The notes under the pieces: generated by a model
Database searches by the model: none
Told to the model about the DNA's origin: nothing
Seen by the model: the letters and a program-made list of their open reading frames with translations, nothing else
From: a virus
Virus record (IMG/VR): IMGVR_UViG_3300010396_000056
Location: 1 to 47,071 of that record
DNA: 47,071 nt
Direction: 5' to 3' (one strand)
In this document: positions 21,086 to 40,928 of the stretch, in pieces
How positions within the stretch are numbered: the stretch's first letter is position 1
How the letters are laid out: each line of letters starts with the position of its first letter
Program-made: the position numbers and the translations under genes

Positions 21086-21333
21086 ATGCGAGCGTCGAGA
21101 GCCCAACCTACCGTAAGTTCAAGCAGGATGATGGCGCTGCCACGCCTCACTTCGGAATCTCTTGCGACGAAGGGTGGCGCGAATCCATCGTCTGCACTGG
21201 GATGTATGAGTGGGTAGCGGATTGGATGCTTGAACAACTTCAGGGAAAGCCTTTCGCGGAAGCTCCCCGGAGCACTCGGACAGTATTGGATGCACGGCGA
21301 ATGGTTTGGCCGGGGGATGAGGTTTTGGCGTAA
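21076..21333 (+). CDS. Hypothetical protein (85 aa)
   Basis: An 85-residue protein with a basic start and a Trp-rich acidic C-terminus (EWVADWMLEQLQ). AGGAG precedes the ATG at 21076, which overlaps the previous stop. It ends at 21333 by TAATG overlap with the tail tubular B gene. No family recognised. Confidence 0.55.
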   Translation: MGMNASVESPTYRKFKQDDGAATPHFGISCDEGWRESIVCTGMYEWVADWMLEQLQGKPFAEAPRSTRTVLDARRMVWPGDEVLA

Positions 21334-24300
21334 TGCCCAAGAGCTACGTCACGCGTAACGCGATGAATGCCGGTGAGTTGAGTTCTCTCATCTCAGGCAT
21401 GAGAGACGACATCGCTAAGTACAGCAGCGGGTGCGTCCAACTCTCAAACGCGATGCCCCTGGTGGAAGGTGGCGCGAAGAAGATGCCGGGGACGTACTTC
21501 GCTGGGCCTGCCGGATCTTCGGGCGCGGTGTTCATCGGATCCATCTCAGGCAACACGCTCACAGTCACAGAAGTCATCTCAGGAACCATCCGCATCGGCT
21601 CTCCACTCATCGGCCCCGGCATCCTCCCCGGAACGACTATCACCGGCTTCATCCCTGCTACCACACCGTTCACGACGTTCTTCAACGTCACAGGCAGCGG
21701 TACTGGTACAGCAACGGGCGACTGGCAGTTCGTCGGCACTCAGTTCCGCACCCACTTTGAGCCGATCACCACGGCGCTCACCGACCTGTTCTTTAGCGGC
21801 TTCGGGTTCTCCATCCCGGTAGGCGCAACCATCCTAGGCGTCGAAGTCAGCACGCTGAACATCTCGCAGGCGGCAAGCGCCGCAACTGTGTCTCAGGTGT
21901 CGCTCTGGAACGGTGGCGCGGTAGGCACCGCCAAGACTCCCAGCAGCCCCTTCACGCCGTCGCTGACCACGGAGACATACGGAAGCCCCACCGACCTCTG
22001 GGGACTCACGGCGGGCGCGTTGCTGGGCATGGTGAATAGCGGAGCGTTCGGGTTCGCCGTGGCAGTGACGGTCCCTGACACCGTTCGCGTGTTCGTCGGG
22101 CAGCCATTCACAATGACGGTGTACTACTCCATCACCACGAACGTACCCAGCGGATCACCGGGCGGAGTAGGTCAGTACACCATCAGCACGAACCTCGCCG
22201 TACCCAGCGAGCAGATGCAGACCGGGGCGAGCGGAAAGAGCCGCCTTGCTCCCTTCCAGTTCTCGACGGCGCAGGGAGCCATTCTGGAGTTCTCGGCTGG
22301 CATCATCCGCATCTGGGAAGGAGCAACGCAGGGGGATTGGTCTCTGGGGCTTGCGCTACAAACTCCACCCTCGGGCGCGAACTACAGCCCGGCGACGGCG
22401 TACGCGGCGGGCAACATCGCGCTTGTGGGGCCGTATGCTGCGGCGCTGTTCTACACGCTGGTACCTTCGCCGCCTCGCTACATCCCTGACCCGTCTATGG
22501 GCGTGCTGACGTTCGCGGCACCCTACGGTACGAGCTTCGCGGCTACCGTCCCTGTCACCTTCACCACCAACGGCACGGACACCCTCTCCGTAACCGCGAC
22601 GGGAAGCTCACCGAATCAGGGTCTCAACATCGCTCTGGCGAACGCGACCCCGGCCAACAATTCAGCCGCGGCGATTCAGGCTCAGATTCGTGCGCTTGGT
22701 AGCCTCAACGCTCCGGGAAACAACTTCGTAGACCTGACGGGATGGACAGTTACTCCCGACCCCATCTACTTCGCCTCACCTTGGATTACCGCACCCACCA
22801 TCTCACCGGGTGCGACAGTCAACGTCGGATTCACGCCATCCTTCATCGCACAGGTGGTCACACCGAACACAGGAACGCAATTCCCCGTCCTGTACACCGG
22901 GGACTTCAACTCTGCTTTCTGGACGGACTACAACGCCAGCGCGCAGCCTCCGATTGAACTGGTGACACCCTACGCAGAGGCAGACCTGTTTGCGCTCGAC
23001 TGCTCGACGCAGAGCGCGGACGTGCTGTGGGTGTTCCACCACCTGTATCCGCCGGCAGTCGTGGAACGCCTCGGCCCAAACTCATGGGCGTACAGCCCGT
23101 CACTCCCCGGCCAGCAACCGGGAGAGCCGCCGTACCGTGGCACCTTGGGCGTGGTCAAGACGGGGTACTCGGCTCTCGGACAGAGCATCACGGCTATCAC
23201 CAAGGCCAACCCCTGCAACGTCACCATCGCGGCAACAGGCACGGTGTTCTCCGATGGCGACCGCGTTTACATGAACCTCATAGCCGGGATGGTGGAACTG
23301 AATCAGGGCGAGTTCATCGTCAGAAATCCGTCGTTTGGTGCGGGAACCTTCAGCTTCGACCTCGAAGATCCCGACACAGGTACGCCTGTAGATTCGAGCG
23401 GGTATCTTGCGTACATCAGTGGTGGGTTTGTCGTGCAGGTGGTTGCTCTGTTCTCCGCTCCGGGGGACTACCCCGCTTGTGGGACGCTGTATCAGGAACG
23501 CCTCATGGTGGGTGGAACCGACAACAACCCCACGCAGTTGAACGGGTCGGTGCAGGATGACTACCCAGACTTTATTGCAGACCCTAACGCCGATGACTTC
23601 GCGATCCAGTACACGCTCACGTCGAAGCAACTGAATCAGTTCCTCAACATGATTGGGACACCCAACGCTCTGCTTATCGGCACCGCTGGAGGAGTGTGGG
23701 TGCTGACCGCGAGCAACGGTACGTCCATAAGCCAAGTCAACATCGACGCCTCCGTTCAAAGCAATCTCGGAGTGAGCGCGCTGGAGCCGCAGCTTGTCAA
23801 CGGTTCGGCCCTGTTCGTGTCTCGCTCAAAGCGTATCGTTTCGTTCCTGGTCTTCAACTTCGGCACGAACACTTGGGAGAACAACGACCTCACCCGACTC
23901 AACCGAAACATCACTGTCGGAGACACGGAAGAGACTTCAGGCATCGCGCAGACGGCTTTCCAGATGGAGCCTTACCCGGTGTTCTGGGCGGTGCGGAATG
24001 ACGGTCAACTCATCGGCTTGGTGTTCAACACGCAGGATCAGGTGTACGCCTGGTTCCGCGTGGATATGACGCCGCTGGGTGGGTACATCGAATCGTGCGC
24101 GGTCATCACCGGATCGGGGAACGAAGATCAGCTTGTCGTGGTTGTGCGGAGGACGGTCAACGAGCAGACGGTTCGGTACGTGGAATACTTCATGCCGCAG
24201 GAGATTTTCGGTCAACTGTCGAACGCTTTCCACGTCTTCTCGGGGCAGCAGTTGAACGGCGGGCCGGCCGTTGCGATCAAGGGTATCTCGAACGCCAACC

Positions 24301-24974
24301 CCAACGTGGTAGCGGCTCCGGGGCATGGGTTTGCCAATGGTGACAAGGTGCAGATAACCGGCGTCGAAGGCATGACGCAGATCAACCAGCCTCCTACGCA
24401 GGCGTACACTGTGGCCGGGGCGACAGCGAACAACTTCCAGCTTCAGGGCATGGACTCCACGGCGTTCGGCGTATACACCGGGGGTGGAACGGCAACGCGG
24501 GTCTTCAACGAAGTCACCGGCCTCACGTACCTGCTCGGGAACACGGTGGTTGCTGTGGGCGACGGCGCACTCATCCTTGAGCCAACAGTGGTTACTTCGG
24601 ACAGCATCACCTTCCCCTACTACGCCAACCTCATCACCATCGGCATCCCGTACACAGCCACCATCCAGCCGACGAATCCCGTTCTCAGTTCGCAGGCGGC
24701 GACGACGCGGGGGATGCCTCAGAAGTTGAACCGCGTCACGCTGTCGCTATATCAGGCGATGGGCGGTAAGCAGGGCACCGACCAGTGGCACATGTACGAC
24801 ATCGACTACGGTGCCGGGACGATGGCAAAGAAGCCGTCACTCTTCACCGGAGAGGTAACGGTGGACATGGACTCGGACTGGAGCGAGCAAGATCGGTTCA
24901 TTGTCACGCATGATGTTCCGTTGCCCTTCACACTTCGCGGTATAGTTTTTAGAATGAGTGCCAATCAGGATTAG
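21333..24974 (+). CDS. Tail tubular protein B (T7 gp12-like nozzle)
   Basis: A 1213-residue nozzle protein of the T7 gp12 type, larger than T7's 794 residues. The N-terminus has the family's SLISGMRDDIAKYSSGCVQLSNAMPLVEGGAKKMPGT. It has a large beta-propeller-like body. An inserted surface module (about 67-133) is shared with the decoration protein at 18892. Two copies of a beta module, around residues 615-705 and 980-1060 (pattern NGDKVQITGVEGMTQIN), suggest internal duplication. It should form the hexameric nozzle and trigger DNA ejection. Confidence 0.85.
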   Translation: MPKSYVTRNAMNAGELSSLISGMRDDIAKYSSGCVQLSNAMPLVEGGAKKMPGTYFAGPAGSSGAVFIGSISGNTLTVTEVISGTIRIGSPLIGPGILPGTTITGFIPATTPFTTFFNVTGSGTGTATGDWQFVGTQFRTHFEPITTALTDLFFSGFGFSIPVGATILGVEVSTLNISQAASAATVSQVSLWNGGAVGTAKTPSSPFTPSLTTETYGSPTDLWGLTAGALLGMVNSGAFGFAVAVTVPDTVRVFVGQPFTMTVYYSITTNVPSGSPGGVGQYTISTNLAVPSEQMQTGASGKSRLAPFQFSTAQGAILEFSAGIIRIWEGATQGDWSLGLALQTPPSGANYSPATAYAAGNIALVGPYAAALFYTLVPSPPRYIPDPSMGVLTFAAPYGTSFAATVPVTFTTNGTDTLSVTATGSSPNQGLNIALANATPANNSAAAIQAQIRALGSLNAPGNNFVDLTGWTVTPDPIYFASPWITAPTISPGATVNVGFTPSFIAQVVTPNTGTQFPVLYTGDFNSAFWTDYNASAQPPIELVTPYAEADLFALDCSTQSADVLWVFHHLYPPAVVERLGPNSWAYSPSLPGQQPGEPPYRGTLGVVKTGYSALGQSITAITKANPCNVTIAATGTVFSDGDRVYMNLIAGMVELNQGEFIVRNPSFGAGTFSFDLEDPDTGTPVDSSGYLAYISGGFVVQVVALFSAPGDYPACGTLYQERLMVGGTDNNPTQLNGSVQDDYPDFIADPNADDFAIQYTLTSKQLNQFLNMIGTPNALLIGTAGGVWVLTASNGTSISQVNIDASVQSNLGVSALEPQLVNGSALFVSRSKRIVSFLVFNFGTNTWENNDLTRLNRNITVGDTEETSGIAQTAFQMEPYPVFWAVRNDGQLIGLVFNTQDQVYAWFRVDMTPLGGYIESCAVITGSGNEDQLVVVVRRTVNEQTVRYVEYFMPQEIFGQLSNAFHVFSGQQLNGGPAVAIKGISNANPNVVAAPGHGFANGDKVQITGVEGMTQINQPPTQAYTVAGATANNFQLQGMDSTAFGVYTGGGTATRVFNEVTGLTYLLGNTVVAVGDGALILEPTVVTSDSITFPYYANLITIGIPYTATIQPTNPVLSSQAATTRGMPQKLNRVTLSLYQAMGGKQGTDQWHMYDIDYGAGTMAKKPSLFTGEVTVDMDSDWSEQDRFIVTHDVPLPFTLRGIVFRMSANQD

Positions 24975-24977
24975 CCT

Positions 24978-25466
24978 ATGTCGGGAATTTCTTCTGCAAC
25001 CGCAATGCTCATCGCCGGTGGAACATCGTCTGCCCTGACAGCGGGCGGGAAGATATTGCAGGGCCAAGAGCAGAAGCAAGCCTACGACTACAACGCCGAC
25101 ATCACTAAACTCAACACCGACAACAAGGTAGAGGCCAATCAGGACGCCTTCACTGCCTTAGTGGGACGGCAAGCCACGGCATACGCTGCGTCCGGGGTGG
25201 ACATCGCCTCCGGTTCTCCACTCCTGACGATGATTGCCACTTCCGCGCGCGGTGCGCGAGAGGGGGAGCAGATTGAAGAGTCCGGTACGGAGCAGGCCAA
25301 CCTCCAGCGCTACTACGGGCGCATCGCCGCGTTCTCTGGAACTATGAGCGGCATCGGTGCATTTTTGCAGGGGATGAGTGGAGACCTTGCCTCCTACGCG
25401 AAACTCACCAACAACCCCATTCCGACCGGAGACCCTAACGCTCCCTACGGCCCCAACTCGGACTGA
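24978..25466 (+). CDS. Internal virion-type protein (162 aa)
   Basis: A 162-residue protein starting with a hydrophobic segment (MSGISSATAMLIAGG) and continuing helical, Ala/Gly-rich, with a QGQEQKQAYDYNADITKLNTDN segment. Position and character fit a T7 gp14-like internal core protein. The start is nearly identical to that of the protein at 13038. Start chosen at ATG with AGGA upstream. Confidence 0.65.
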   Translation: MSGISSATAMLIAGGTSSALTAGGKILQGQEQKQAYDYNADITKLNTDNKVEANQDAFTALVGRQATAYAASGVDIASGSPLLTMIATSARGAREGEQIEESGTEQANLQRYYGRIAAFSGTMSGIGAFLQGMSGDLASYAKLTNNPIPTGDPNAPYGPNSD

Positions 25467-25468
25467 CC

Positions 25469-27286
25469 ATGGCGAAGATACCCGGCGTACCCACAATCGA
25501 CCCCGTTGATAAGCCGATGGAATCCCCTGCCGAAGCGGGCAAGGTGGGAGCGGCCATTGCGGGTCTTGGTGAGGCTACGCAGGATGTTGTGCAGACCGGG
25601 TTTCAGGTTGAACTGTTCCTGAAGAAAGCACAGCAGAACGTAGACGAGACCACGTTTCAGAACAACGCTCACGCTCTCATGTTGCAGTATCAGGATGCGT
25701 TGGCGAAGACGACAAACTCACGCGACGTTGCCGCCGTTACTAAGGAGTATCAGGACAACCTACAGGCCAACGTCAAGCGGTGGGAGAAGTCCCCGGCGCT
25801 TATTCAGATTCAGCAGCAAGCCGATGGCCTCACTCCGCAGCTTACCCATCTGGGTACGGTGAAGACGGCAGACCTCCAGGTAAAGGAATCGGCGGTGCAG
25901 TCTGAGATTCAGAAGCAGACACTCCTCCCGCAACTCGTGAACGCCGTCCGCAATGGAGACAAGGCCACGGAAGACTTCATCAACGGGGCGATGGATCACC
26001 AGTACGCGGAGCGGGAGAAGGCGGGCCTCATCTCCCACGCTCAGGTGGAACTGGAAAAGAACGCAGACCAGATTCGTTTCCGCACGCAGTTGAATGAGTC
26101 GTACATCGAGAGCAACGACCCCAAGGAACGGCTGTCGGCCATAGCGCAACTCAAGAGCGGCGGGAGCGGCCAGCTGAACCTCGAAGGACTGGCGGCTGGA
26201 GACATCGCGGCGTTGCGCGTGCAGGCGGAAAGCAAGAACCGCGAACTGGATAACCTGGCCGAAGCGGGGAACCTGAACAAGGCTCTCAACGTAACGCAAG
26301 CTGCGTTCTCCGCACCGGAGTACAAGAACAACTATGAGGCTCGCGTGAACTCTCTTCAGGATGGAGACTGGCTAACCAAGCACGGCATCGTAGCCCCTGA
26401 CGGCAGCCCTGACCGCGTGATGGCTGAGAAGCTTATCGCCGAGACCAATCGGCAGCGTGGGGAGTGGGAGAAAGAGCGTGCCGACCGCGACGAAAAGGCC
26501 ATCAACAAGATCGAACCGCTCATCATCGGCAACAGCCTTTCGCGTGGGCAGCTTGTGCAGATTTCGCAGCAAGAGCAACTGTCTCCCCGCGCCTATGCCG
26601 CTGTGCTGGCGAAGTGGGATGAGAACCAACGCTACAACCATCAGGTAGCCACTGAAGGCCGCATACTGGCGAATCAGGAGAGACAGCAGCGCAGTCAAGA
26701 CGTGGCGGCTGGATTCAACCTGCTCATCGCCCAGGGCGGCGTGCCTTCGGTTCACGACATCCTCACCACTCCCGGCATGACGAAGGCCGACCAGTCCACA
26801 GTGATTGAGCGGGCAAAGCGGGCGAGAGAGGACAAGCCGTATCAGGAAGGTCTTTCGATCATCTCTAACGCCTACCCGGTGAACACAAAGAAGATGACAC
26901 CGGAGCAACAGAATCAGCAGAACGAAATGTACCTGCGGACGGCACAGGCTTACGACCAAGAAATCAACGCGCATCCCGACGAAGACAAGTCAGCCATCGC
27001 TGGCAAACTGGTTATGCCGAGCATCGTCCGCACGGCCATCCAAAAGAGTGTCCCGTCTACAGTACCCGTTGCTCCTGTGGCTGTGAAGACAGAGCATCAC
27101 CCACTGAAGGCCATAGGAGACTTCCTGTTCGGTGGAGCGTCGAAGGACTTGGAGAAGGGGTACAACGCCGCTGAAAACAAGCTCGCTCAACCCTTGGATA
27201 AGCCTACCTCCAAGCCGCCAACCAATCCAGCGAAGGGTGATAAGTTCAACGGGTTCACGTGGGACGGAAATGGATGGACGAAGTAG
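25469..27286 (+). CDS. Internal virion protein, long helical (605 aa)
   Basis: A 605-residue, highly charged helical protein with long coiled-coil-like stretches and Gln-rich segments. The position between the 162-aa protein and the 1318-aa protein corresponds to T7 gp15. It probably forms part of the ejected core that carries DNA across the cell wall. The C-terminus (KGDKFNGFTWDGNGWTK) is short and aromatic. No enzymatic motif seen. Confidence 0.75.
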   Translation: MAKIPGVPTIDPVDKPMESPAEAGKVGAAIAGLGEATQDVVQTGFQVELFLKKAQQNVDETTFQNNAHALMLQYQDALAKTTNSRDVAAVTKEYQDNLQANVKRWEKSPALIQIQQQADGLTPQLTHLGTVKTADLQVKESAVQSEIQKQTLLPQLVNAVRNGDKATEDFINGAMDHQYAEREKAGLISHAQVELEKNADQIRFRTQLNESYIESNDPKERLSAIAQLKSGGSGQLNLEGLAAGDIAALRVQAESKNRELDNLAEAGNLNKALNVTQAAFSAPEYKNNYEARVNSLQDGDWLTKHGIVAPDGSPDRVMAEKLIAETNRQRGEWEKERADRDEKAINKIEPLIIGNSLSRGQLVQISQQEQLSPRAYAAVLAKWDENQRYNHQVATEGRILANQERQQRSQDVAAGFNLLIAQGGVPSVHDILTTPGMTKADQSTVIERAKRAREDKPYQEGLSIISNAYPVNTKKMTPEQQNQQNEMYLRTAQAYDQEINAHPDEDKSAIAGKLVMPSIVRTAIQKSVPSTVPVAPVAVKTEHHPLKAIGDFLFGGASKDLEKGYNAAENKLAQPLDKPTSKPPTNPAKGDKFNGFTWDGNGWTK

Positions 27287-30200
27287 ATGCCAACCTACTA
27301 CGACCCCGTAACAGGTAAGCCTGTAGCGCAAGCTGCGAAGACCTACTACGACCCCACGACCGGCGCTCCTGTGCAGCAAGGCGCTGCGGATGTCCCACGC
27401 GCGAACCCCACTCCGGTAACGCTCCCCCCTGACTTCGGTTCCGACACTTTCAAGGCCGCAGTCCACGCTCAGATGCTCGGCATAGACCCCGGCATGGCGT
27501 ACACGAACCGCGAGGAAATCGACAAGCAACTGAAGTCGCAGGGCGCTGGAAGCTACGATGACGGGCAACTGGACGACACCATTGCCAACGACATCAAGGT
27601 AGGTTTCGAGTCATCCATCTTCGGTCTCCATCACCGCGAAGCACTGCCTGAAACCATCAAGAACCCCGGCATGATTGACAAGTTTGTCTCGGGTCTGTCG
27701 GAGATGTTCGCAGACCTTCCGTGGTACGTGGCTGGTGGTGTGGTGGGTGGAGCGGCCGGCTCTGAGGCTCCCGTAGTGGGAAACGCGGTAGGAGCAGCGG
27801 CTGGGGCTTTTGCTATCCCATCCGCGATGCGGGAAGCCCTTGTGCTGGGCATCAAGGACGGCGAGGTAAAGGACTTTCCTGACTTGCTTCGTCGTGCCGG
27901 TAAGGTGGTGTGGGAAGGAACTAAGGGAGCAGTGGTAGGAGCGGCGACCGAACTAACTGGAGGCATTGCCCCGGTGATCGCTAAAAGCCCGCTGACTTCG
28001 ATGGCGATCAAGGGGTTGTTTCAGGCGACGGGAATGACGGTGGCGGCGGATGTTCTTGAAGGCCATCTGCCAACGGCCAAGGACTTCGCTGGCAACGCTG
28101 CGCTCATCATCCCGCTGAACCTCATCACCCACGGCCTGCCGCTGCTTACCGGTGACGCCAAGCAAGCCGTGATGGACGTGTACGCCAAGGACGGCAAGAC
28201 GCCACAGGAGACAACCGAGACGCTCAACGCGCAGCCTCCGGTGAAGCCTGACCTACCCGAAGGACTGCGACCAGCAATCAAGCACGCAGAAGGAGTAACC
28301 GAGGGTGATACGACCGACACGCACGACAAACTTGCGGAGCGCGTACTGTCCGATAAACCTGTCTCGATGGAGAAGTTGGAGGCAGAACCGGCGCTTGCCG
28401 ATGATGTGTTGCAGAACCCCACGGTTCACGATCAGGATGTCATTGACCGGGCGTGGCAAATCAAGTCGGAAGCGATAAACGCGGGGGAGACTAAGGATCT
28501 TCCTGAAGGTGCTACTTCCGTTACCCGCGATGAGGCGGTGGAAGCTCGCGAGTCGGCTAACAAGACAGGAAGGCACGCGGAAAACATGCAGGGCGTTCGC
28601 TCTCTCGCCAGCGAAATGCCCGAAGGAGAATACGTTCGCACGGAGATACCGATAGAGAAGATCGTGGCGGCAAAGGATGCAGACCCAGAACTGGTAAAGC
28701 AGTACGCCGAACGCGAGGGCAAGTTCCCGCCTTCCTACGGAACGATGCAGAAGGGCAAGGTTCTTCTGGAGGATGGAAACCACCGCCTAGAAGCCGCTCG
28801 CGCTCGCGGGGACAAGAGCCTTGAAGTCATCATGCCGCGTGCAGCGTTTGACGCTTACTCTGGAGAAGAAAAGCCTCTGAGAATCGAGGATGAGTACGAC
28901 CGCGCATCCATGAAAACAGGGCGTGGCTTCGTTACCCCTGACGGTAAGTTTCTCAGCCGCTCCGAAGCCCGCGCATGGATGAAGGATAACGAACCTGACA
29001 CCCACGAAATTTGGTTGCAGGAGCAGAACGGAGACAAGCAGGCAGAACTTCACACAGAGGACTACGCCAGCGCACGGAACCGGGTGCAGGCGCGTTCGCT
29101 GGTGCAGGGTGACCCGGTTGCCTCAGATATTCCCCCCGACCTCAAGAGGTTCCTCGCAGAAGCGCGCAGCACTACCGGGATACTCAACAAGGTCAAGGCT
29201 GGCCTCGGCAGCGCGAAGTATGGCTACGAGGCCATCAGGACGCTGCTGGTTGGGCCGCGCAACTATCTCCGCGCCGAAGGGGAGCAAGTCGTCAGTGGAT
29301 TGCGGAAACTGGTACCTGACCCGGTGGAGCAACAGGCTCTCCACTTCGTTCGTGACTACCGCGATGACCCTGAAGCCCTGCGTTCGTCCATCGAAGAAAT
29401 ACGCTCCGGGGACAACGATAAGCTGAAGGCGTTCCTGCCTGCGATGGAGCGGGCGCTGGAGCCGATGTCTCCTGAGATGGAACAGGCAGACGCAGCGATG
29501 ACGGACTACTTCACCAAGGCGCTCGCCCTGGGCCGTGCCGTTGGGACGCTGGACTCTGCTATTGACCCATCGCGCTACAGCCCTCGCCTGTTCGCTCGCG
29601 TGACAGAGGAAGGCGCTACAGGAGGTACGGGCCGTCCCACGTTCACAGACCGCACCGTGAACTCCATCCGTCGCGACTACCTCCACACGCTAGACCCACT
29701 GAAGGATGGCACGACTGAGGCTCGCACGTTCAACGCGATTGATGAGATGTCCATCTACAACGACCGTCACGCTACGGCGGTATCCACTGCGCTGTTCAAA
29801 CAGGAACTCAAGAACTCGGCGCTTGGAGTAGAGGGTAGCCGCGGCAAAGTTCCCGCTGGATGGGTGGCGCTGACAAAGCAGTTTGAGGACAAGCGGACGT
29901 TCGTGCAGGATGACGGAACCAATGTCACGACCGTCAAGAATCTGTACGTACCGAAGGACATTGCGGACGCGCTCAAGCCACTTCTCGAAGATCCCGGCCA
30001 GCTTTCGCAACTGTCGAAGTTCCTGCATATCCAGTCCATCGTCAAAGGCATCGAGCTCACCCTGTCGGCGTTCCATATCAAGGCTCTCTCCGTGACGGCG
30101 TTCAACAACATGGGTCTGAAGGACTTCGTGAGCGCGATGCACGCTGACAGCAACTCTGCGGACGTTGCGGAGATTGAGAGGCGTGGTGCGCTGTACGGAC

Positions 30201-31243
30201 TGGAGACGACTAAGACAGGAGCGCCGTTCGACGCCTACCGTGGCCTCAAGCCTGACGTGGAAGCAACCGGCCTCGCTAAGCTCAAGGACAACGCCATCGT
30301 CAAGGGTGTTGACAGCTTCGCGCAGGGCATCACCCGCGTCACGTTCGACGTGGTACAGCGCAAGTGGAAGGTCATGGACTTTGCGAAGAAAGAGGCTGGG
30401 TGGATAGCCAAGCATCCCGACGCAAACCCTTCCGAGTACGCAACCGCGATGAAGGGATACGCGAAGGAAATCAACGCTGCCTACGGTGGCCTGAATTGGG
30501 ACGTAATGGGTGTAAGCCGGGGTGTGCAGAATGTCTCGCGCCTGTTCCTTCTCGCTCCGGACTGGGCATACTCTAATGTCGCCAATCTCAAGTACGCTTT
30601 CTCCGATGGTGGTACGTCCGGGGCGGCGTCTCGTGCCTTCTTTGTGAAGTCGTTTGCCACAGGCTTTGCGATGACGGCGGCGGCGAGCATCTTCATCGGC
30701 GGCAAGTACGACCCCTCGGACGTGAAGCATATCGATCAGGTGTACCTCGGCACCGACAAGGACGGCAAAGAGATGTACGCCAACTGGTTCTTTGCGGGCG
30801 CACCGAAGGACGCGATGAACCTCGTCAAGCGTTCGTACAGCGAAGGCCCGGTGGCTGGGCTGGCAGAAATCATGCTGAGTAAGGCGTCTCCGGTCGCGGG
30901 AACCATCGTGGATGTGGCGAAGAACAAGGACTACAAGGGAGCACCGATTTACAAGGCTCAAGACGATAGCGTGGACAAGACGGTAAAGACGGCCGAGTAC
31001 GCCGGAAAGAAGCTGCTCCCGATCACTGGCGTCAGCGCAGCGGAAACCGTTGTAGGTGCGCTCACTGACGAAACGCACGAATACTCCTACCGCGATATTC
31101 TGGAGATCGCAGCGGACGCCGTTGGTTCTCCTACGATGCATCAGAAGCCAGCGGACGAAGGTGGCAACAGCAGCGGACGCAGCACTGGAAGGCCAAAGGG
31201 AAGAACAGAAAGCAAGAGATTCAGCATACGGGGTGGACAATGA
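27287..31243 (+). CDS. Large internal virion protein with ParB-like domain (1318 aa)
   Basis: A 1318-residue protein in the position of T7 gp16. It starts with two copies of a TYYDPxTGxPV motif (residues 3-13 and 19-29). A long hydrophobic Gly/Ala-rich segment at about 145-175 could insert in a membrane. A ParB/Srx-type domain lies at about residues 445-530, with EDGNHRLEAARARG as signature. The remainder is helical. No lysozyme or transglycosylase motif (as in T7 gp16's N-terminus) is visible. It is probably part of the ejection complex. Confidence 0.8.
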   Translation: MPTYYDPVTGKPVAQAAKTYYDPTTGAPVQQGAADVPRANPTPVTLPPDFGSDTFKAAVHAQMLGIDPGMAYTNREEIDKQLKSQGAGSYDDGQLDDTIANDIKVGFESSIFGLHHREALPETIKNPGMIDKFVSGLSEMFADLPWYVAGGVVGGAAGSEAPVVGNAVGAAAGAFAIPSAMREALVLGIKDGEVKDFPDLLRRAGKVVWEGTKGAVVGAATELTGGIAPVIAKSPLTSMAIKGLFQATGMTVAADVLEGHLPTAKDFAGNAALIIPLNLITHGLPLLTGDAKQAVMDVYAKDGKTPQETTETLNAQPPVKPDLPEGLRPAIKHAEGVTEGDTTDTHDKLAERVLSDKPVSMEKLEAEPALADDVLQNPTVHDQDVIDRAWQIKSEAINAGETKDLPEGATSVTRDEAVEARESANKTGRHAENMQGVRSLASEMPEGEYVRTEIPIEKIVAAKDADPELVKQYAEREGKFPPSYGTMQKGKVLLEDGNHRLEAARARGDKSLEVIMPRAAFDAYSGEEKPLRIEDEYDRASMKTGRGFVTPDGKFLSRSEARAWMKDNEPDTHEIWLQEQNGDKQAELHTEDYASARNRVQARSLVQGDPVASDIPPDLKRFLAEARSTTGILNKVKAGLGSAKYGYEAIRTLLVGPRNYLRAEGEQVVSGLRKLVPDPVEQQALHFVRDYRDDPEALRSSIEEIRSGDNDKLKAFLPAMERALEPMSPEMEQADAAMTDYFTKALALGRAVGTLDSAIDPSRYSPRLFARVTEEGATGGTGRPTFTDRTVNSIRRDYLHTLDPLKDGTTEARTFNAIDEMSIYNDRHATAVSTALFKQELKNSALGVEGSRGKVPAGWVALTKQFEDKRTFVQDDGTNVTTVKNLYVPKDIADALKPLLEDPGQLSQLSKFLHIQSIVKGIELTLSAFHIKALSVTAFNNMGLKDFVSAMHADSNSADVAEIERRGALYGLETTKTGAPFDAYRGLKPDVEATGLAKLKDNAIVKGVDSFAQGITRVTFDVVQRKWKVMDFAKKEAGWIAKHPDANPSEYATAMKGYAKEINAAYGGLNWDVMGVSRGVQNVSRLFLLAPDWAYSNVANLKYAFSDGGTSGAASRAFFVKSFATGFAMTAAASIFIGGKYDPSDVKHIDQVYLGTDKDGKEMYANWFFAGAPKDAMNLVKRSYSEGPVAGLAEIMLSKASPVAGTIVDVAKNKDYKGAPIYKAQDDSVDKTVKTAEYAGKKLLPITGVSAAETVVGALTDETHEYSYRDILEIAADAVGSPTMHQKPADEGGNSSGRSTGRPKGRTESKRFSIRGGQ

Positions 31244-31386: not shown

Positions 31387-31493
31387 GACGCAGGCGCTAC
31401 ACCGACGAGTATGGCAACATTCAGGTGAACGACCTCGATTGGGCGCACGTTTGGCACTGCATCTGCGAGCAGTTGGGGATTGAGGAATTTTAG
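31383..31493 (+). CDS. 36-aa protein
   Basis: A 36-codon gene (MRRRRYTDEYGNIQVNDLDW...) with a basic start and a short acidic end. It overlaps the genes on both sides (ATGA and TAGTG). The overlaps are the support. Unknown role. Confidence 0.45.
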   Translation: MRRRRYTDEYGNIQVNDLDWAHVWHCICEQLGIEEF

Positions 31494-32749
31494 TGGAAGA
31501 CCTGAAGTCCAAGACCGTGGCGATATGCGACTCCGGGTTATTTGCCGAATGCGCTCGCACACTGTCACGCTCATTTGGCAAGGTCTACTATACGTCGCCG
31601 TGGGTGTCGGACTTCCCGTCCAGTACAAAAACCGAGTTGGGCGAAGGGTTCCCCGAATACGAGCGCGTCAAGGACATCTGGGACATCATTGACGACGTTG
31701 ACCTGTTCGTGTTCCCAGACCAGCATCAAGGACCGCTACAGCAGTACCTCGCAGCGCAGGGTAAGCGTGTGTGGGGAGCGCGGATGGGCGACGAACTTGA
31801 GTCTGCCCGCGCTGAGGCGAAGGACTACTTCAAGACGCTCGGCATCCCCCAAGGAAAGTACGAAGTCATCCAGGGCATGACGGCGCTCCGCAAGTTCCTG
31901 AAGGGCCGCGATGACAAGGTGTGGGTGAAGATCAGCCTCACGCGGAACGACACGGAAACGTTCTCGGTCTGTGGCTACGAAGGCTCGAAGAATCGGCTCG
32001 ACAAGTTTGAGGCGGAGTTGGGGCCGGCTGCGGAAGCAATGGAGTTCGTTGTCGAAGACGATCTTCCCGATACATTGGACATCGCCATTGACACGTTTTG
32101 TGTTGACGGCAAGTACCCCAAGCAGGCGTGCCTCGGAACCGAGAAGAAGGACGAAGGATACATTTGCGCCGTGCATGATTGGGACAAGATGCCACCGGGC
32201 CTGACGGACATCTACGAAAAGCTCGCACCCACTCTGGAGAAGTACGAATACCGCAACGTCATCTCTCTTGAGTCGCGGATGGATGGCAAGACAACGTACC
32301 TCGCAGACCCTTGCTGCCGTGGTGGTTCGCCGCCGTTCGAGTTGCAGCAAAACCTCTATACCAACCTCGCGGAGATTATGTGGGAAGGTGCAGACGGCAA
32401 ACTGGTTGAGCCGAAATTCGCAGCCCGTTATGGTGCTCAGTTCATCATCGAGAGCAAGTGGAGCATCACCAACCCCTTGCTGGTGGAGTTCCCGGCTAAG
32501 TACCGTGAGAACATCAAGCTTCGCTACGCAACCATGTTCGGCAAGCAACTGTGGATACTCCCACAACACTCGGACACTCCCAGCTTCGGTTCCATCGTCA
32601 CGACCGGGGAAAGTTTGGATGAGTGCTTCGACCAAGCAAAGGAGATTGCCCACGAGATAAAAGGCATCGGTATCGAGTGCCTTGTCGGAAGCGTGTCGGG
32701 CCTGCAAGATAATCTTAAGCAATTTGCCAAATGGAACGTACAATTCTAG
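31493..32749 (+). CDS. ATP-grasp-like (GARS/PurD-type) protein
   Basis: A 418-residue protein with an ATP-grasp-type layout: an N-terminal Rossmann-like part (LKSKTVAICDSG...), a central ATP-binding part (KVWVKISLTRND ... AMEFVVEDDLPDTLDIAIDTFCVDG), and a C-terminal part with YLADPCCRGGSPPFELQ. It resembles phosphoribosylamine-glycine ligase-like proteins found occasionally in phages. Such enzymes join a carboxylate to an amine using ATP. It sits between the core and fibre genes. The GTG at 31493 follows GAGGA and overlaps the upstream stop. The substrate is unknown. Confidence 0.6.
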   Translation: MEDLKSKTVAICDSGLFAECARTLSRSFGKVYYTSPWVSDFPSSTKTELGEGFPEYERVKDIWDIIDDVDLFVFPDQHQGPLQQYLAAQGKRVWGARMGDELESARAEAKDYFKTLGIPQGKYEVIQGMTALRKFLKGRDDKVWVKISLTRNDTETFSVCGYEGSKNRLDKFEAELGPAAEAMEFVVEDDLPDTLDIAIDTFCVDGKYPKQACLGTEKKDEGYICAVHDWDKMPPGLTDIYEKLAPTLEKYEYRNVISLESRMDGKTTYLADPCCRGGSPPFELQQNLYTNLAEIMWEGADGKLVEPKFAARYGAQFIIESKWSITNPLLVEFPAKYRENIKLRYATMFGKQLWILPQHSDTPSFGSIVTTGESLDECFDQAKEIAHEIKGIGIECLVGSVSGLQDNLKQFAKWNVQF

Positions 32750-33046: not shown

Positions 33047-34120
33047 ATGTCAGTCGTCACGCTCAATATCAGCGTTTCATACCTCTCATCGGGAAGCGTG
33101 GGGCCGTATGGCTTCAACTTCCCCATCAGTGACCCGTCTGCGCTCAAGGTCATCGTCAACAACAGCGTGGTTTCGCCTACCCTGTACACCATACTCCCGC
33201 TGAACAACAACTACGACAACGGCGGCAGCATCACGTTCGTCTCAGCACCTACGGCGGGGCAAACCGTTGTGTTGCAACGGTCTACCCCGCTCACGCAAAC
33301 CAGCCAGTTCCACGACAACATGCCGAACCCGATGGCGCAGTTTGAGGCGGGTCTGGACAAGCTGACGGAGATAGTTCAAGAGATTGCGGCCAACCAAACA
33401 GGCAGCGGCAGTGGGGCAACCATCGTCACTGCTGGGGCCGGTATCAACGTGACAGGAAGTGGAACCGTGGCTAACCCATACGTCGTGTCTGTGTCCACCG
33501 CTTTCGGCATCCTCACCTTCACTGGTGGGCAGGCTGGGGAGATTGGACAGAGCTTCACCAACCCTTCTTTTGCTGCGACGTACTCAGGCACTCCTACCAG
33601 CGCCAACGTCACGAACACGGACGGCATCGACTCTCCTCTGAATCTGACGGCTCCGTACACTTCGGCGGCGGTCATCGGCACGTTCCACCACACGGCGGCG
33701 GCTACGGTGACGTTCACCCTGACGGCAACCAACGGCGTGTCTAGTCCCACGGCTACGCAGACGCTTACGTGGCAGGAGCGCATCTTTGGCGGAGTGGGAA
33801 CGATTGGCGCAACATCTTCGGTGACAGCCACCGGGACAACGGCAGTGCTGTCAACTGGCGACGCTCTGCCGAGCGCAGGTCTGGGAATAGAGACGATAGG
33901 TCAGAACTTCGGCCCGTTCTCTCCTTCTGGACAAGCGGTGTACTTGCTGCTCAGTGGCGGGTCGCACACCTTCACCGACGCTCTGACCGGTTTCCCATTC
34001 GCCTTCAACACGCCAACATCAGTGACGTTCGTCAACCAGTTCGGCGTGTCGCTTTCGATGTTCCTCTATCAGTCAACCAACAGCCTCACCGGAACCTTCC
34101 AGCCCAAGGTGGCTTCATAA
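33047..34120 (+). CDS. Tail fibre with T7-type N-terminal domain
   Basis: A 357-residue fibre. The N-terminal 110 residues or so (VTLNISVSYLSSGSVGPYGFNFP... ITFVSAPTAGQTVVLQRSTPLTQ... FEAGLDKLTEIVQEI) match the T7 tail fibre (gp17) anchor domain that binds the nozzle. A short Gly/Ser linker then leads to beta-rich, Thr-rich distal domains. It should be the first link of the receptor-binding apparatus; the spikes at 34120 and 37470 may attach to it or act separately. TAATG overlap with the next gene. Confidence 0.8.
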   Translation: MSVVTLNISVSYLSSGSVGPYGFNFPISDPSALKVIVNNSVVSPTLYTILPLNNNYDNGGSITFVSAPTAGQTVVLQRSTPLTQTSQFHDNMPNPMAQFEAGLDKLTEIVQEIAANQTGSGSGATIVTAGAGINVTGSGTVANPYVVSVSTAFGILTFTGGQAGEIGQSFTNPSFAATYSGTPTSANVTNTDGIDSPLNLTAPYTSAAVIGTFHHTAAATVTFTLTATNGVSSPTATQTLTWQERIFGGVGTIGATSSVTATGTTAVLSTGDALPSAGLGIETIGQNFGPFSPSGQAVYLLLSGGSHTFTDALTGFPFAFNTPTSVTFVNQFGVSLSMFLYQSTNSLTGTFQPKVAS

Positions 34121-37100
34121 TGAGATTCAAATACCTCGCCGTCGCGTTCCTTGCCACCTTCCCGGCGTTGGCGCAGATTCCTGCTCCTCAGATACCCCTG
34201 ACCGGCAACATCGGCGCGCAGGGCTTCCCCGTGCTCAACAACGGCACGCTCATCATGGCCTCGGACGCCAACCGAACCTTGACGGCGCAGGAAACGAGCG
34301 CGATATCGGTCAAGGTGACAAGCTCGGTGTCGCTCACAGCCACGCGCAACATCATCTACCCTGCCGGACGCTTCCTCGTCACCGTGGAGAACGCCACGAC
34401 AGGCGGTCAAACCATCAACGTCTGCGGAGCGTCGGGAGGCTGCTATGCCGTCCCCAACGACGGCAACCTGTACACGGTATGGAACGACGGCACAGGGTTT
34501 GTCGGGCCTCCTGCGGGTGGTGGAGGTTCGGGTTGCATCCCTGGTGGTAGTACCGGCGTCTTGCAGAAGAACGGCGGCGGTGGAACCTGCTCTCCTTCCA
34601 GCATCACAGACAACGGCTCTACGGTGGTGGGTACGGAACCGGCGACATTCCCTGCGGTTAACACGGTCATCAACGCGGGCAGTTCGCTGTCGGCGGCTGT
34701 GACGGCGTGCGGATCTGCGCAGACTACCATCCAGATCACGCAGACTATTGCGGTGGGCTCGGGGATTACCGTGCCGGCGAACTGCACGCTGCAACCCGAT
34801 TCAGCAGGGCTACTGACTGGTACCTCGATCACGATCAATGGGCCAATCGTTGCGTCGAAGCATCAGATTTTCGGAGCGGGTCTCGCGGTCACGGGCCTGG
34901 GTGGAGATATCCCTGTCGAATGGTTCGGCGGGAAGCTGGACGGCACGCTCACGCCCAGCACCGGAACGGACAACTGCACACCCTTCGCAGCGGCTATCGC
35001 ATCCCTTACGGCGGGTGGCAACGTCACATTGCTGGCCGGAAACGGGACACTTCTGGGCTATCGAACTACCTGCGAGTGGGACATTACCACGACAGGAACA
35101 GGCATCGTTGGTGTGGCGCTTGACCAGAATTATGGATCACCATATCCCGGAGGACACGGATCGACTCTCATTCTCGATAGCGCCACGATCAACGGCATCA
35201 TCATCAGCCCGCCAGCTCAAGACAACACGGTGCGGAATGTCAACGTCGTGCGGACTGTGAGGCCCACAGGAACCACGTCGAAGGGCATCGGAGTTGTAGG
35301 AACTCCCAGCGCCTTGGTTCCGGGAGTGATTATCGAGAACAACGCATCCTCTGATAGCGTGAACGACTTCTATTTCAAAGGAGCGGCCTTCTCGGCGGCT
35401 GGTCGAGTCGCATATAACGGAGCCTATTGGGGCAATACGGGCCTCTCCTCGCCGGCAAGCGGAGGGTGTGGATTTTTCATTGATAGCGGAGACGGAACAG
35501 CCAGCAATTCGACCCTGTTCAATTCTCCTAACTCTGCTCAGACAGCTACAGCCAGCACTGGACTAACTGGACTCTGCATCAAGGGAATCAATGTCAGCGA
35601 CAACGTAATAAACGCCTTTCAGTCGGCCAACATGGATTACAGTATTGACGTTGAAAACACAGGCACCACCAGCTTTGTCGCACAGGACTTGGCTATTTAC
35701 AACTCAGTGAACACTTCCTGCAACATAGCCTGCGTGAAGATAAACGGTGCGCAGTCATCCACTGACCTTGCCCCCCACGTCATCATCAGCGGCGGAAATT
35801 TTTTCCCGACAGGTACGGGTGCCGTGGGTATTCTCGTTTCACACAGCACGAACGTTGGTGTGTCCGGAGCACAGATATTACCAGGGGGGTCGGGCGTCAC
35901 CGATATTTCTCTGGACACCGTGGATGGCTTCACGGTCACAAACAGCACGATAGACGGTCTCGACTTCGGTACAGGCGTAGGCGTTTCCTGCCTGAACTCC
36001 ACCAAAGGCACCATCAGCAACAACCAAATCAAGCTTTATACGAGCGGCACCGGCATCAAGAATGTTGGGTGCACGCTGGTCTCAGAGCAGGGCAACAGCA
36101 TCGCGGCCCCGACAGGTGGAACGCTAGGCACCGGCATGAGCTTCGACTCGGGCAGCTCGAACAACGGGCCATGGTCGCTGAACAACATCGACGCCGCGAC
36201 GGTGACTACACCGGTGAGCGATGCCGGGACGAACAACAACGATCCGCAGTTGAACTCCTCGCGCATGTCGCAGGCTACAACCTCAGCGTTTGGCGTGGTC
36301 AAGCCTGACGGAACGACCATCACCATCTCTGGCGGAGTAATCTCTGCGTCGGGTGGCGGCGGCGGTACCGTGGTAGACGGCGCAGGAACCACCACGCCGG
36401 GGCAGATTGCTATCTCCACCACCACGACGCATCAGATTGGCTACACGACGACTCCCGCCCTCGGTACTCCAGCCAGCGGCGTCATCACGAATCTTTCGGG
36501 TACATGCGCATCATGCAATATCGGCGGCAGCGCAGGAAGCGCAACGACTGCTACCAATCTTGCCGGCGGCGCACTCGGCTCCGCACCCTACCAGAGCGCT
36601 GCAAACGCTACATCCTTCATCACGAGCCCAACGACCAGCGGACACACGTTCTTCTACGGATGGCAGCCTTCAGGAAGTGCTATTGCTCCTGCGGCGATCG
36701 ATGGCGCGACGTATCTAGCATCTCCTCCAGCGATTGGAGGCACGACGCCTGCGGCGGTCACGGGCACAGCCGTTACTGCTACCAATGGATTCACATCTTC
36801 GGTAGCAGCAACAAATGCCAATCTTTTCTACGGCGGTACGGAATTTTTTTATAACCCAGCGGTAAATGATTCTTCGATCACTATTACAGGTGTGCCTAAT
36901 GTGGGAACTGGTACCACGTCTTTACCCCTCGTATACCTTCATCCATCCGCCGCCTCCACTGTATCAACATGGAGCACTTCTGGAACATATATGGGATGGA
37001 ATGCTGCTTCGGGTTTCGTGGGTAATTTCATGGACTTTCACGTAAATGGCGGAACTTCTGTAGCCAAATTGGATGCGAGCGGAAACCTTACTGTGGCGTC

Positions 37101-37479
37101 ATGCGCAGGATGCAGTGCAGTAAACAAGCGCTCCATCGCCTTCCAATACGGCTCCCCGGGCGGCTCTGCGCTATCGACCGGCGTCATGGGATACCTCACC
37201 GTTCCGTTCGCCTGCACGATCAGCGGCTGGTCGATTCAAGTTGACGCGGGAACGGCCACGATCAAGTTCCTGAAGGTCGCGGCGGGTACGGCGATTCCTA
37301 CCCTTGGATCGAACAGCATCAACACTTCGGGCGTATCGATCTCGACAGGCACGGTCATTCAATCGACCACGCTTACCGACTTCACGACGACTGCGGTCAC
37401 GGCGAACGACATCGTGGCGGCTGACCTCATCACTACTTCGGGCGTTGGGTATATCGCGGGGCAGCTCACATGCCAATAA
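34120..37479 (+). CDS. Signal-peptide-bearing beta-helix spike-like protein
   Basis: A 1119-residue protein. Residues 1-18 (MRFKYLAVAFLATFPALA) are a classic Sec signal with an AxA-type cleavage site before Q19. The body is long and repetitive with Gly, Ser, Thr and Asn, the character of a parallel beta-helix. A segment near residue 270-300 resembles pectate-lyase-3-type motifs of tailspike depolymerases (EWFGGKLDG ... NCTPFAAAIASL). Phage tail proteins normally lack signal peptides. The start overlaps the fibre stop (TAATG), with AAGGTGG upstream. No catalytic residues can be named with confidence. Confidence 0.75.
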   Translation: MRFKYLAVAFLATFPALAQIPAPQIPLTGNIGAQGFPVLNNGTLIMASDANRTLTAQETSAISVKVTSSVSLTATRNIIYPAGRFLVTVENATTGGQTINVCGASGGCYAVPNDGNLYTVWNDGTGFVGPPAGGGGSGCIPGGSTGVLQKNGGGGTCSPSSITDNGSTVVGTEPATFPAVNTVINAGSSLSAAVTACGSAQTTIQITQTIAVGSGITVPANCTLQPDSAGLLTGTSITINGPIVASKHQIFGAGLAVTGLGGDIPVEWFGGKLDGTLTPSTGTDNCTPFAAAIASLTAGGNVTLLAGNGTLLGYRTTCEWDITTTGTGIVGVALDQNYGSPYPGGHGSTLILDSATINGIIISPPAQDNTVRNVNVVRTVRPTGTTSKGIGVVGTPSALVPGVIIENNASSDSVNDFYFKGAAFSAAGRVAYNGAYWGNTGLSSPASGGCGFFIDSGDGTASNSTLFNSPNSAQTATASTGLTGLCIKGINVSDNVINAFQSANMDYSIDVENTGTTSFVAQDLAIYNSVNTSCNIACVKINGAQSSTDLAPHVIISGGNFFPTGTGAVGILVSHSTNVGVSGAQILPGGSGVTDISLDTVDGFTVTNSTIDGLDFGTGVGVSCLNSTKGTISNNQIKLYTSGTGIKNVGCTLVSEQGNSIAAPTGGTLGTGMSFDSGSSNNGPWSLNNIDAATVTTPVSDAGTNNNDPQLNSSRMSQATTSAFGVVKPDGTTITISGGVISASGGGGGTVVDGAGTTTPGQIAISTTTTHQIGYTTTPALGTPASGVITNLSGTCASCNIGGSAGSATTATNLAGGALGSAPYQSAANATSFITSPTTSGHTFFYGWQPSGSAIAPAAIDGATYLASPPAIGGTTPAAVTGTAVTATNGFTSSVAATNANLFYGGTEFFYNPAVNDSSITITGVPNVGTGTTSLPLVYLHPSAASTVSTWSTSGTYMGWNAASGFVGNFMDFHVNGGTSVAKLDASGNLTVASCAGCSAVNKRSIAFQYGSPGGSALSTGVMGYLTVPFACTISGWSIQVDAGTATIKFLKVAAGTAIPTLGSNSINTSGVSISTGTVIQSTTLTDFTTTAVTANDIVAADLITTSGVGYIAGQLTCQ

Positions 37480-39569
37480 TACGACTAGTAATCCTGCTGG
37501 CGCTTCTCTTCGTTCCTCGGGCCTGGGCGACGGCCTACACTGCATCCGTGACCGGCAACTGGAACAGCGCCGCTACATGGGGCGGGGCAGGCATCCCCGG
37601 CTCTGGCGATACGGCGGTCATCAACAACGGCGTCACGGTCACCGTTCCGAACGGATATACGGCAGTGATCGGAACATCGCCCGCAAACGACAGCGCGACT
37701 CCAGCCTTGGCCTGCGCCAACACTGGAAGCGGCACCGGAATCCTCATCGTGGCGACAGGAGGCACGCTTGTCCGAAAGGGAACCGTTATCAGGTGCAATT
37801 CAAACTGGACTTTTCAGGCGGGGAGCCATCTTTCGTATGACTCGACTGGTTCGGTAAACCCCACGACGGCGATGTATACCTTCCAGTCTTCACAGAACAA
37901 TTCCAACCCTAACGATCTTCTCATTTTCGCCGGAACGAGCGGTTCTCACGTCACCGTAGATTCAGTAAGCAATAACCCCACTGGTGGATTCGGCATAACC
38001 CCGGCGATCCGCTGGGCAGACGGCGGCAACATTCAGGCTAGTTATACCGATTTCAGCTATTGCGGGGCTTCCACTACCGGAGCTTGTTTCGAAACGAACC
38101 CCTCGACCAGTGCGGGCAAAGTGGCCTTAGACCACACCACCTGCGATCACTGCGGCCAGCTTGTTACTGACGCCAGCATAGGCGCGGCTTCAACCTTCAC
38201 CCTTGCAGAGACGAGCTGGACGAACCCCACAAACACGTCTTACACGCTGCAGCTCAATACTTCGACGGCTCGGACTACCGGCACGCGTCTCATCACCTTC
38301 TCGGTCATCACAGGGCAAATTTCGATCATTTCCACGGGCGGCCAGAGTACCGGAATCACCTTCACTCACAACGTCGTGCGGAAGGTCTTCACGAGCTCGG
38401 CTCCGATGTTCACCGGGACCAGGGACGTATCCTTTGACTCTTTCGATGACAACTTGGATTTCGCGAATACCAACAGCGGCTCCGCAGATCAATTCAGCTT
38501 GCCCTCGGGAACGGTCACAAATTTCTACCTGATGAGCCACTGCGATCCCATCGCACAGTGCGCCAACGAGCACCCGCTGTATAACCAGCCCGGCGCGTTG
38601 AATATGGACATCTCCAATTTTGTTGCGGACTATGACAGCAGCGACACCTTTGGGGATATCTTCGAGCCTCACAACGACGCGACATCTGCCGGCGTCACAC
38701 TGAAGGTTCACAATGGGGTGTTCCTGTGCGGATCTACGGGCCTTGCCATCGGCTCCTTTATCAACAACTCCTCCGCGACTGCTCAGACAAACCTCAAAAT
38801 TTACTTCGAGCATATTACTGCTTGCGGTGTGTTGACGGCGAGTACGCAGACCTTTGGAGTCGGATGCGAAGCCGGAACATCATGGCCCGCTGGTGCAGTC
38901 CCGAGCATCCAGAACAATCTTATTTGGGGGCCGGCAAGTAGCACGATCGGATTCATCGCCAATTCTCCACCAGCACAAGCCTGCTCGATCACAGCGGGCG
39001 CCGTCACTGTCGCGGACTATCAGGCCATTTGGAACATCTCTACCAGTATCTATGGTCTGCCTCTGACACAGTTCGCCGTCACCCCTGGCGCTCACGACCT
39101 CACCGGCGACCCGCAATACGTTTGCTCAAACTACGCGAACTGCAACTTCCTGGCGTATGACACCGCTCCGACGGGGTTGAATCACGCGCTGGGGACTGGC
39201 TGGGTTACATCTCACGCCTATTCGGTGGGCGACATCGTAAGCTCCAGCGACGCGACCTTCTTCGGCGGGGCGACGTACAACTTCATTTGCGTTTCGGCCC
39301 ATACAAGCGGGTCGACCACCAAGCCTGGTACAGGATCGGCATGGGCGGAGACGTGGGAACCTGCAACCGAGGCGGATATCGAGGCCAGCGTGCTTGCAGG
39401 GACAACCTTCACTGGCGGACGCTCCATGATCACACAGCTCATCAACTTCGTCCGGGCAGGATACGGCTTCCACAATGCGGCTTATCACAACTCTGGCAGC
39501 GATTCCCTCGACCGAGGCATACTCAACGGCTACGTTCCAGCGCCGAGAGCATTCTCGATGATTTTCTAA
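37470..39569 (+). CDS. Second signal-peptide-bearing spike-like protein
   Basis: A 699-residue protein. Residues 1-20 (MPIIRLVILLALLFVPRAWA) form a Sec signal with AWA|TA cleavage. The remainder begins with GNWNSAATWGGAGIPGSGDTAVI, a G8/beta-helix-type start, and continues as Asn/Thr-rich short strands. The C-terminus (SLDRGILNGYVPAPRAFSMIF) lacks the repeats. It overlaps the previous gene by 10 nt. It may be an exported surface-active enzyme or an alternate spike. Unlike standard phage spikes, it has no clear anchor domain. Confidence 0.75.
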   Translation: MPIIRLVILLALLFVPRAWATAYTASVTGNWNSAATWGGAGIPGSGDTAVINNGVTVTVPNGYTAVIGTSPANDSATPALACANTGSGTGILIVATGGTLVRKGTVIRCNSNWTFQAGSHLSYDSTGSVNPTTAMYTFQSSQNNSNPNDLLIFAGTSGSHVTVDSVSNNPTGGFGITPAIRWADGGNIQASYTDFSYCGASTTGACFETNPSTSAGKVALDHTTCDHCGQLVTDASIGAASTFTLAETSWTNPTNTSYTLQLNTSTARTTGTRLITFSVITGQISIISTGGQSTGITFTHNVVRKVFTSSAPMFTGTRDVSFDSFDDNLDFANTNSGSADQFSLPSGTVTNFYLMSHCDPIAQCANEHPLYNQPGALNMDISNFVADYDSSDTFGDIFEPHNDATSAGVTLKVHNGVFLCGSTGLAIGSFINNSSATAQTNLKIYFEHITACGVLTASTQTFGVGCEAGTSWPAGAVPSIQNNLIWGPASSTIGFIANSPPAQACSITAGAVTVADYQAIWNISTSIYGLPLTQFAVTPGAHDLTGDPQYVCSNYANCNFLAYDTAPTGLNHALGTGWVTSHAYSVGDIVSSSDATFFGGATYNFICVSAHTSGSTTKPGTGSAWAETWEPATEADIEASVLAGTTFTGGRSMITQLINFVRAGYGFHNAAYHNSGSDSLDRGILNGYVPAPRAFSMIF

Positions 39570-40463: not shown

Positions 40464-40928
40464 ATGAAACGCATCCTCCCGCTTCTCCTCTGCCTGCTGT
40501 GCGCACCGCTGGCCGGCTGCCCATCTCAGAACACTGCCGCCGCTCTTGTAGGCATCGCTGGCACAGCCATTGCCTCGCTCGAAACCATCGAAGGCCACGG
40601 TGACCTTGCAGCGCAGATCCAGAAGGACTTCGGTGACGCCCAGACCGCCGTACTCAACTGGAAGTCCGGCACCCCGACGCAGGACGTACACCAGGCGCTC
40701 GCCATCGTCGTCAATGACCTCAACCTGCTGCCGGTTAGCCAGCAGACGCAGGAGTACATCATTCTGGCGGTTGGCACCGTGCAGGCCGTGCTTGACCTGT
40801 TCCCCGGCACCGATCCTCAGTTCGCTACGACCGCAAGGGCTATGCGAGTGCAGATTGTGGCACCGAAGTCTGAGAAGGAATTCCGCGCCCGCTGGAATGC
40901 TCTGCCGGGCCATCTCGCACCGCTGTAA
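40464..40928 (+). CDS. Phage lipoprotein
   Basis: A 154-residue protein with a lipoprotein signal: MKRILPLLLCLLCAPLAGC, with lipobox LAGC at residues 16-19, so Cys19 would be lipidated. The mature region is helical (AALVGIAGTAIASLE ... YIILAVGTVQAVL). It could act as a spanin-type, superinfection-exclusion or envelope protein. AAGGAG precedes the ATG. It is the last gene before the convergent terminator. Confidence 0.7.
   Translation: MKRILPLLLCLLCAPLAGCPSQNTAAALVGIAGTAIASLETIEGHGDLAAQIQKDFGDAQTAVLNWKSGTPTQDVHQALAIVVNDLNLLPVSQQTQEYIILAVGTVQAVLDLFPGTDPQFATTARAMRVQIVAPKSEKEFRARWNALPGHLAPL

Follow-up and report, generated by a model that had tools for sequence, protein, structure and literature searches.

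The fibre module of the window

The window analysed here is the whole of a 47,071-nt stretch (IMG/VR virus record IMGVR_UViG_3300010396_000056) and represents a podovirus from a family of soil phages. Its gene set includes a terminase, a portal, a major head protein, the tail tubes gp11 and gp12, and internal virion proteins, and its portal is less than 30% identical to the portals of epsilon15, HTVC010P, and Carin1. At the fibre module, genes for a conserved 418-aa protein and for a small one are followed in order by those for the T7-type fibre P0002, for P0003 and P0001, and for an outer-spanin-type lipoprotein; the features of the module described below are all on the plus strand. The protein of ~418 aa (31493..32749) is of cytoplasmic type and, in nearly all relatives, lies at the upstream edge of the fibre module; 0/23 of these proteins have a signal peptide. 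It had no match in Pfam or PHROG and carries the motif SKxVxxxDxGxxxExAxxLSxSFGKVYYTSPWV; by eye, the protein looks ATP-grasp-like. P0002 (33047..34120, 357 aa) matches phrog_1640 (E 7e-11) and phrog_5510, and its residues ~1-115 are a phage tail-attachment N-domain. P0002 has neither a signal peptide nor a cysteine, whereas nearly all the fibres of its relatives carry a signal peptide and a cysteine pair. At the other end of the module, the lipoprotein (40464..40928; MKRILPLLLCLLCAPLAG↓C, by rule-based detection) is outer-spanin-like, and its predicted nature points to lysis of the ordinary kind in a diderm host.

Between P0002 and the lipoprotein, the two open reading frames described in the initial annotation are intact. 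P0003 (34120..37479) is a predicted exported spike/fibre protein of 1119 aa with 20 cysteines in its mature chain, and P0001 (37470..39569) is a predicted exported protein of 699 aa with 15 cysteines. The clean Sec signal peptides claimed for both proteins are there, namely MRFKYLAVAFLATFPALA↓QIP on P0003 (34120..34173) and MPIIRLVILLALLFVPRAWA↓TAY on P0001 (37470..37529), where the arrow marks the predicted cut. Both N-termini have the positive n-region, the hydrophobic core, and the AxA-type cleavage site of the SPase I pattern. The annotation had named an upstream start that removes the signals as possible counter-evidence, but no such start is plausible for P0003 and there is none at all for P0001. 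The start codon of P0003 overlaps the stop codon of the fibre gene (TAATG), and an AAGG Shine-Dalgarno sequence lies upstream; the P0003 frame is open further upstream, but only across the fibre gene, which uses another frame. Moreover, the relative G003 (L170) retains this start junction and the signal peptide, with 64% identity over residues 1-128, and the signal peptide is also conserved in L287. The start of P0001 at 37470 overlaps the end of P0003 by 10 bases.

The absence of a membrane anchor, also part of the initial annotation, agrees with the mature chains, in which the maximal 19-residue Kyte-Doolittle value is 1.41 for P0003 and 1.28 for P0001. The description of both proteins as beta-helix-like was not confirmed, since neither has a match in Pfam, PHROG, or the PDB, and a single-sequence AlphaFold2 model of P0003 (pLDDT 36) is uninformative on the fold. 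The T7-type tail-attachment domain is missing from both proteins in PHROG and Pfam searches, and neither protein had a match in INPHARED or in single-protein IMG/VR scans. No relatives of P0001 were found among 50 family records. P0003 has an N-terminal domain (residues 19-128; 34174..34503) in common with G003 (64% identity) and L287 (63%), both of which are signal-bearing. Its C-terminal fibre domain (37126..37476), with the cysteine pair C1032/C1118, also ends the T7-type fibre G042, where it is 57% identical, and it is found in about 20 other phage contigs. L287 encodes tandem paralogues of the N-terminal domain; every one of them has a signal peptide and a GCQGFPC motif that is absent from P0003. 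We also considered P0003 and P0001 as superinfection-exclusion lipoproteins of the Llp/Cor type and rejected this assignment, since they have no lipobox and, at 699-1119 aa, are not small.

Signal peptides in related and unrelated phages

Relatives were collected by IMG/VR scans, which gave 78 loci with gp12 and 58 with the portal, and 20 of their fibre regions were examined closely. The window gp12 (21333-24974) has 1213 aa and the family profile has 1052 positions; the length differences among relatives are insertions in the N-terminal third. In a contig profile scan, the gp12 alignment found nothing but Acinetobacter proviruses of distant relationship, which did not point to a host; their genes at this place are without signal peptides.

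Signal peptides were called with a heuristic rule-based detector written for this analysis, not with SignalP. In the window, only P0003, P0001, and the lipoprotein at 40464 scored as signal-bearing genes, while a frame on the minus strand at 41049 fitted only the lipobox pattern. Among the relatives, counted as a non-redundant set, signal peptides were found on 26 of 27 distinct T7-type fibres and on 27 of 34 other fibre-module genes. None was found on the 398 capsid, scaffold, portal, gp11, gp12, internal virion (three proteins), and 418-aa proteins of the family. The background of the detector was 1/37 for terminases and 9/275 for the remaining genes of the non-redundant set, and 2.5% for all open ATGs in the window. 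In the 20 regions, nearly every relative has signals on the T7-type fibre and on the genes 3' of it, and in many cases a gene 5' of the fibre bears one as well. The only T7-type fibres without a signal peptide are those of G003 and of the window. The near-complete genomes hold no second, signal-free T7-type fibre; the signal-bearing copies are the sole ones, and thus it should be the virion fibre that is exported. The gene order of L225 deviates, with a signal-bearing T7-type fibre directly 3' of gp11. L245 (G071), whose gp12 matches at E 2e-82, is a remote member of the family; its T7-type fibre is 34% identical and also signal-bearing. G004 (L171) encodes two T7-type fibres, both of which have a signal peptide and the cysteine pair.

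The tail-attachment N-domain was detected in P0002 and in the signal-bearing fibres of the relatives by PHROG, tblastn, and fold. These proteins share the attachment domain, by sequence and by fold, with known T7-type fibres (gp17 N-domain; PHROG 1640/5510; BcepC6B, HTVC028P, Carin1, LME-1, and T7), as well as the place after the internal virion proteins; an equal role is expected. However, the known fibres begin at the domain itself (M-TVST...), without a signal peptide and without the two cysteines, while nearly all fibres of the relatives have both. The signal-free fibres of isolated phages open with M-TVST or a similar sequence in 10/10 cases (BcepC6B, HTVC028P, ZP6, Tyrion, JSF33, and others). 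The signal-bearing relatives read AxA↓TVTTQ, and the predicted cut aligns with the fibre start M-TVSTQ of the isolated phages. Because the A↓T cut falls at the canonical domain start, the predicted cleavage would restore an ordinary mature N-terminus. When the mature signal-bearing domain was modelled from a 23-sequence alignment (pLDDT ~90 over residues 10-80), the closest solved structures were the LME-1 portal-tail complex, the Carin1 tail fibre assembly, and the P-SCSP1u tail, and the T7 gp17 N-terminus also matched, with weaker E-values and further down the list. As modelled, the mature domain is a phage fibre-attachment fold.

The C-terminal domain of P0003 occurs in signal-bearing modules of contigs of 25-179 kb, mostly without the gp12 of the window family. 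Four of these contigs encode a tape-measure-like protein, and one of the four is over the family cut-off. Phage and plasmid searches with this domain gave no match. Furthermore, the cultured Acidobacteriota phages Tunturi_1 and Tunturi_2, which are grown on Tunturiibacter psychrotolerans X5P2, have five signal-bearing genes in one run in the spike region (gp12, gp13, gp14, gp16, and gp17), at their annotated starts. These genes are annotated as hypothetical, tail fibre, tail spike/pectin lyase, and virion structural protein, and signal peptides or export are not mentioned in the paper on the two phages (PMC11924767). Their gp17 is homologous to signal-bearing module proteins of the window family (28% over 612 aa, E 2e-25), whereas the core head and tail genes are unrelated to those of the window family and no match to the T7-type fibre domain was found in these two phages. 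The annotated fibre genes examined in Tunturi_3, 4, and 5 have no signal peptides, and thus export signals are not universal in Acidobacteriota phages. Judged from the Tunturi phages only, the window virus probably infects an acidobacterium.

N-termini that are hydrophobic by chance, or wrongly assigned start codons, could imitate such a pattern, as 2.5% of random open ATGs trigger the detector. However, the signal is called on 26/27 fibres compared with 0/398 other proteins, the start junction is conserved in G003, and an equal pattern is present in the isolated phages Tunturi_1 and Tunturi_2 at their own annotated starts. The chance of an artefact is negligible, and for the family it is already refuted. 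Sec export of the fibre-module proteins is a well-supported prediction from their sequences. The predicted export signals extend over the entire fibre module, occur in several phage types that are unrelated to one another, and are not a matter of two odd proteins.

Cysteine pairs and the history of the export signal

The fibre-domain alignment has 37 rows, 25 signal-bearing and 12 signal-free. Two cysteine columns are occupied in 25/25 and 23/25 of the signal-bearing rows, the other two being shifted by one position, and in 0/12 of the signal-free rows. In the attachment domain, the two residues are Cys14 and Cys68. A wider scan found exactly two cysteines in 24 of 25 distinct signal-bearing domains and in 1 of 24 signal-free ones. 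In the tree of the domain, the signal-bearing fibres formed one clade (100/99), and the fibres of the window and G003 were nested inside it as a pair (98/96). The simplest history is therefore a single gain of the signal with its two cysteines and a single loss of all three, so that the independent events behind the link between cysteines and signal in the fibre domain are few.

The number of cysteines is even in 45 of 52 predicted exported proteins, compared with 126 of 251 cytoplasmic structural proteins. It is also even in 45 of 54 homology clusters represented by one protein each, with the T7 domain removed (p=4e-7), a set that was defined by the detector and contains a small number of false positives, a terminase among them. 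P0001, with an odd number of 15, is an exception to this pattern. In a second, looser test, the cysteine pair of the P0003 C-terminal domain was present in 17 of 22 proteins; 11 of the 17 pass the strict signal-peptide rule, and among the others several have ambiguous starts and one is truncated. The pair is absent from all four contigs with signal-free modules, and also from the signal-bearing exception L286. Cysteine density was rejected as evidence, since it is ~1.9 per 100 aa in exported proteins and 1.7 in other genes, without a clear excess, and thus the argument rests on parity and co-occurrence. Disulfide pairing of the exported fibre proteins is a well-supported prediction from these patterns. 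The scaffold (17047-17811) and the three internal virion proteins (24978-31240) are, unlike the fibres, essentially free of cysteines over ~160 homologues.

Hydrophobic N-termini are able to anchor proteins generally, and the strong hydrophobic cores seen here would also suit an uncleaved N-terminus that serves as a membrane or virion anchor. This is very unlikely, however, because the A↓T cleavage motif lies exactly at the canonical domain start, and because the cysteines follow an even parity and were lost together with the signal.

Proposed export of the fibres and their attachment at lysis

Tailed-phage assembly is taught as cytoplasmic until lysis. The signals and cysteines of the fibre module suggest a route that is not known for tailed phages, in which fibres pass through Sec and are attached at lysis, and searches of open-licence papers found no report of Sec-exported tail fibres. 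The host Sec system would export the fibre proteins, with cleavage of the signal; their folding and disulfide formation would take place in the periplasm, at the time when capsids are being filled in the cytoplasm. Holin-driven collapse of the inner membrane would then let the virions meet the periplasmic fibres, and fibre binding would be the last step of virion assembly, followed by rupture of the outer membrane. We infer that exported fibres are incorporated into virions at this moment. In the window virus, the T7-type anchor P0002 would have reverted to a cytoplasmic form. The exported P0003 and P0001 would thus meet it, or become active, no earlier than the collapse of the inner membrane. 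We consider it fairly probable that P0003 and P0001 belong to such a Sec-exported tail-fibre module, with periplasmic disulfides and attachment to the virion at lysis. There is a slightly better than even chance that periplasmic construction of the receptor-binding apparatus is shared by several unrelated tailed-phage lineages, probably from Acidobacteriota, with Sec-secreted fibres that are locked by disulfides and attached only during lysis to virions made in the cytoplasm.

Virion proteins with Sec signal peptides are found in filamentous phages, as pIII and pVIII, of which pIII also has disulfides, and these phages extrude through the membrane. Here, in contrast, the capsid and tail proteins are signal-free and the signals are on the fibre module only. 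KP32, K1-5, and CBA120 have branched receptor-binding systems in which one anchor holds several depolymerase spikes, and the window resembles them in having consecutive large spike genes beside a T7-type anchor fibre. However, the spikes of those phages are made in the cytoplasm and are not known to have signal peptides, whereas P0003 and P0001 carry them. Addition of a fibre or spike as the last assembly step, possible even outside the cell, is known from the P22 tailspike and from in vitro complementation with T4 and T7 fibres.

The initial annotation took the signals of P0003 and P0001 as a sign of non-tail proteins and proposed secreted depolymerases or surface proteins for superinfection control. 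In the corresponding rival reading, the two are secreted non-virion enzymes or adhesins, exported during infection, that would degrade host polysaccharide or alter the cell surface. Its view of real export signals without an anchor, and of an exported class of phage proteins, holds. The signals are not evidence of a non-tail nature, because the canonical T7-type virion fibre of the relatives bears an equal signal and is the sole such fibre in near-complete genomes. A secreted depolymerase or exclusion protein is still a serious rival, above all in the case of P0003 and P0001, which have signal peptides and no anchor and adjoin an anchor fibre without a signal; in addition, residues ~265-320 of P0003 look pectate-lyase-like by eye. 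The case for a virion part is also weaker for these two proteins because their anchor P0002 has lost its signal. Nevertheless, a purely secreted role is unlikely, because the T7-type fibres of the relatives, which have no known use off the virion, bear an equal signal and occur as signal-bearing copies only, and because P0003 ends in a fibre domain. P0003 and P0001 may join P0002 at lysis or act as secreted proteins.

Exported fibres might also bind receptors from the periplasm or the outer surface and block superinfection or the trapping of progeny on debris, like Llp of T5, while a share of them joins virions. Sec export of receptor-binding modules and paired cysteines, which require an oxidising compartment, would fit this function. 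However, a blocker would need less than a large fibre of several domains whose tail-attachment domain is intact, lipobox and anchor are absent, and a signal-free virion copy was not found in the near-complete genomes, which makes receptor blocking quite improbable.

If fibres are attached at lysis as proposed, tailed phages would have a two-compartment assembly route with its final step outside the cytoplasm, and the gain and loss of export would be visible in evolution, as in the window virus and G003. Fibre maturation would depend on the Sec and disulfide machinery of the host, and fibres could be exchanged between virions or used before lysis. The combination of signal peptides and even cysteine numbers in a fibre module could serve as a sequence signature for the receptor-binding proteins, and perhaps the hosts, of uncultured soil phages. 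Tunturi_1 and Tunturi_2 are cultured isolates that carry predicted exported module genes.
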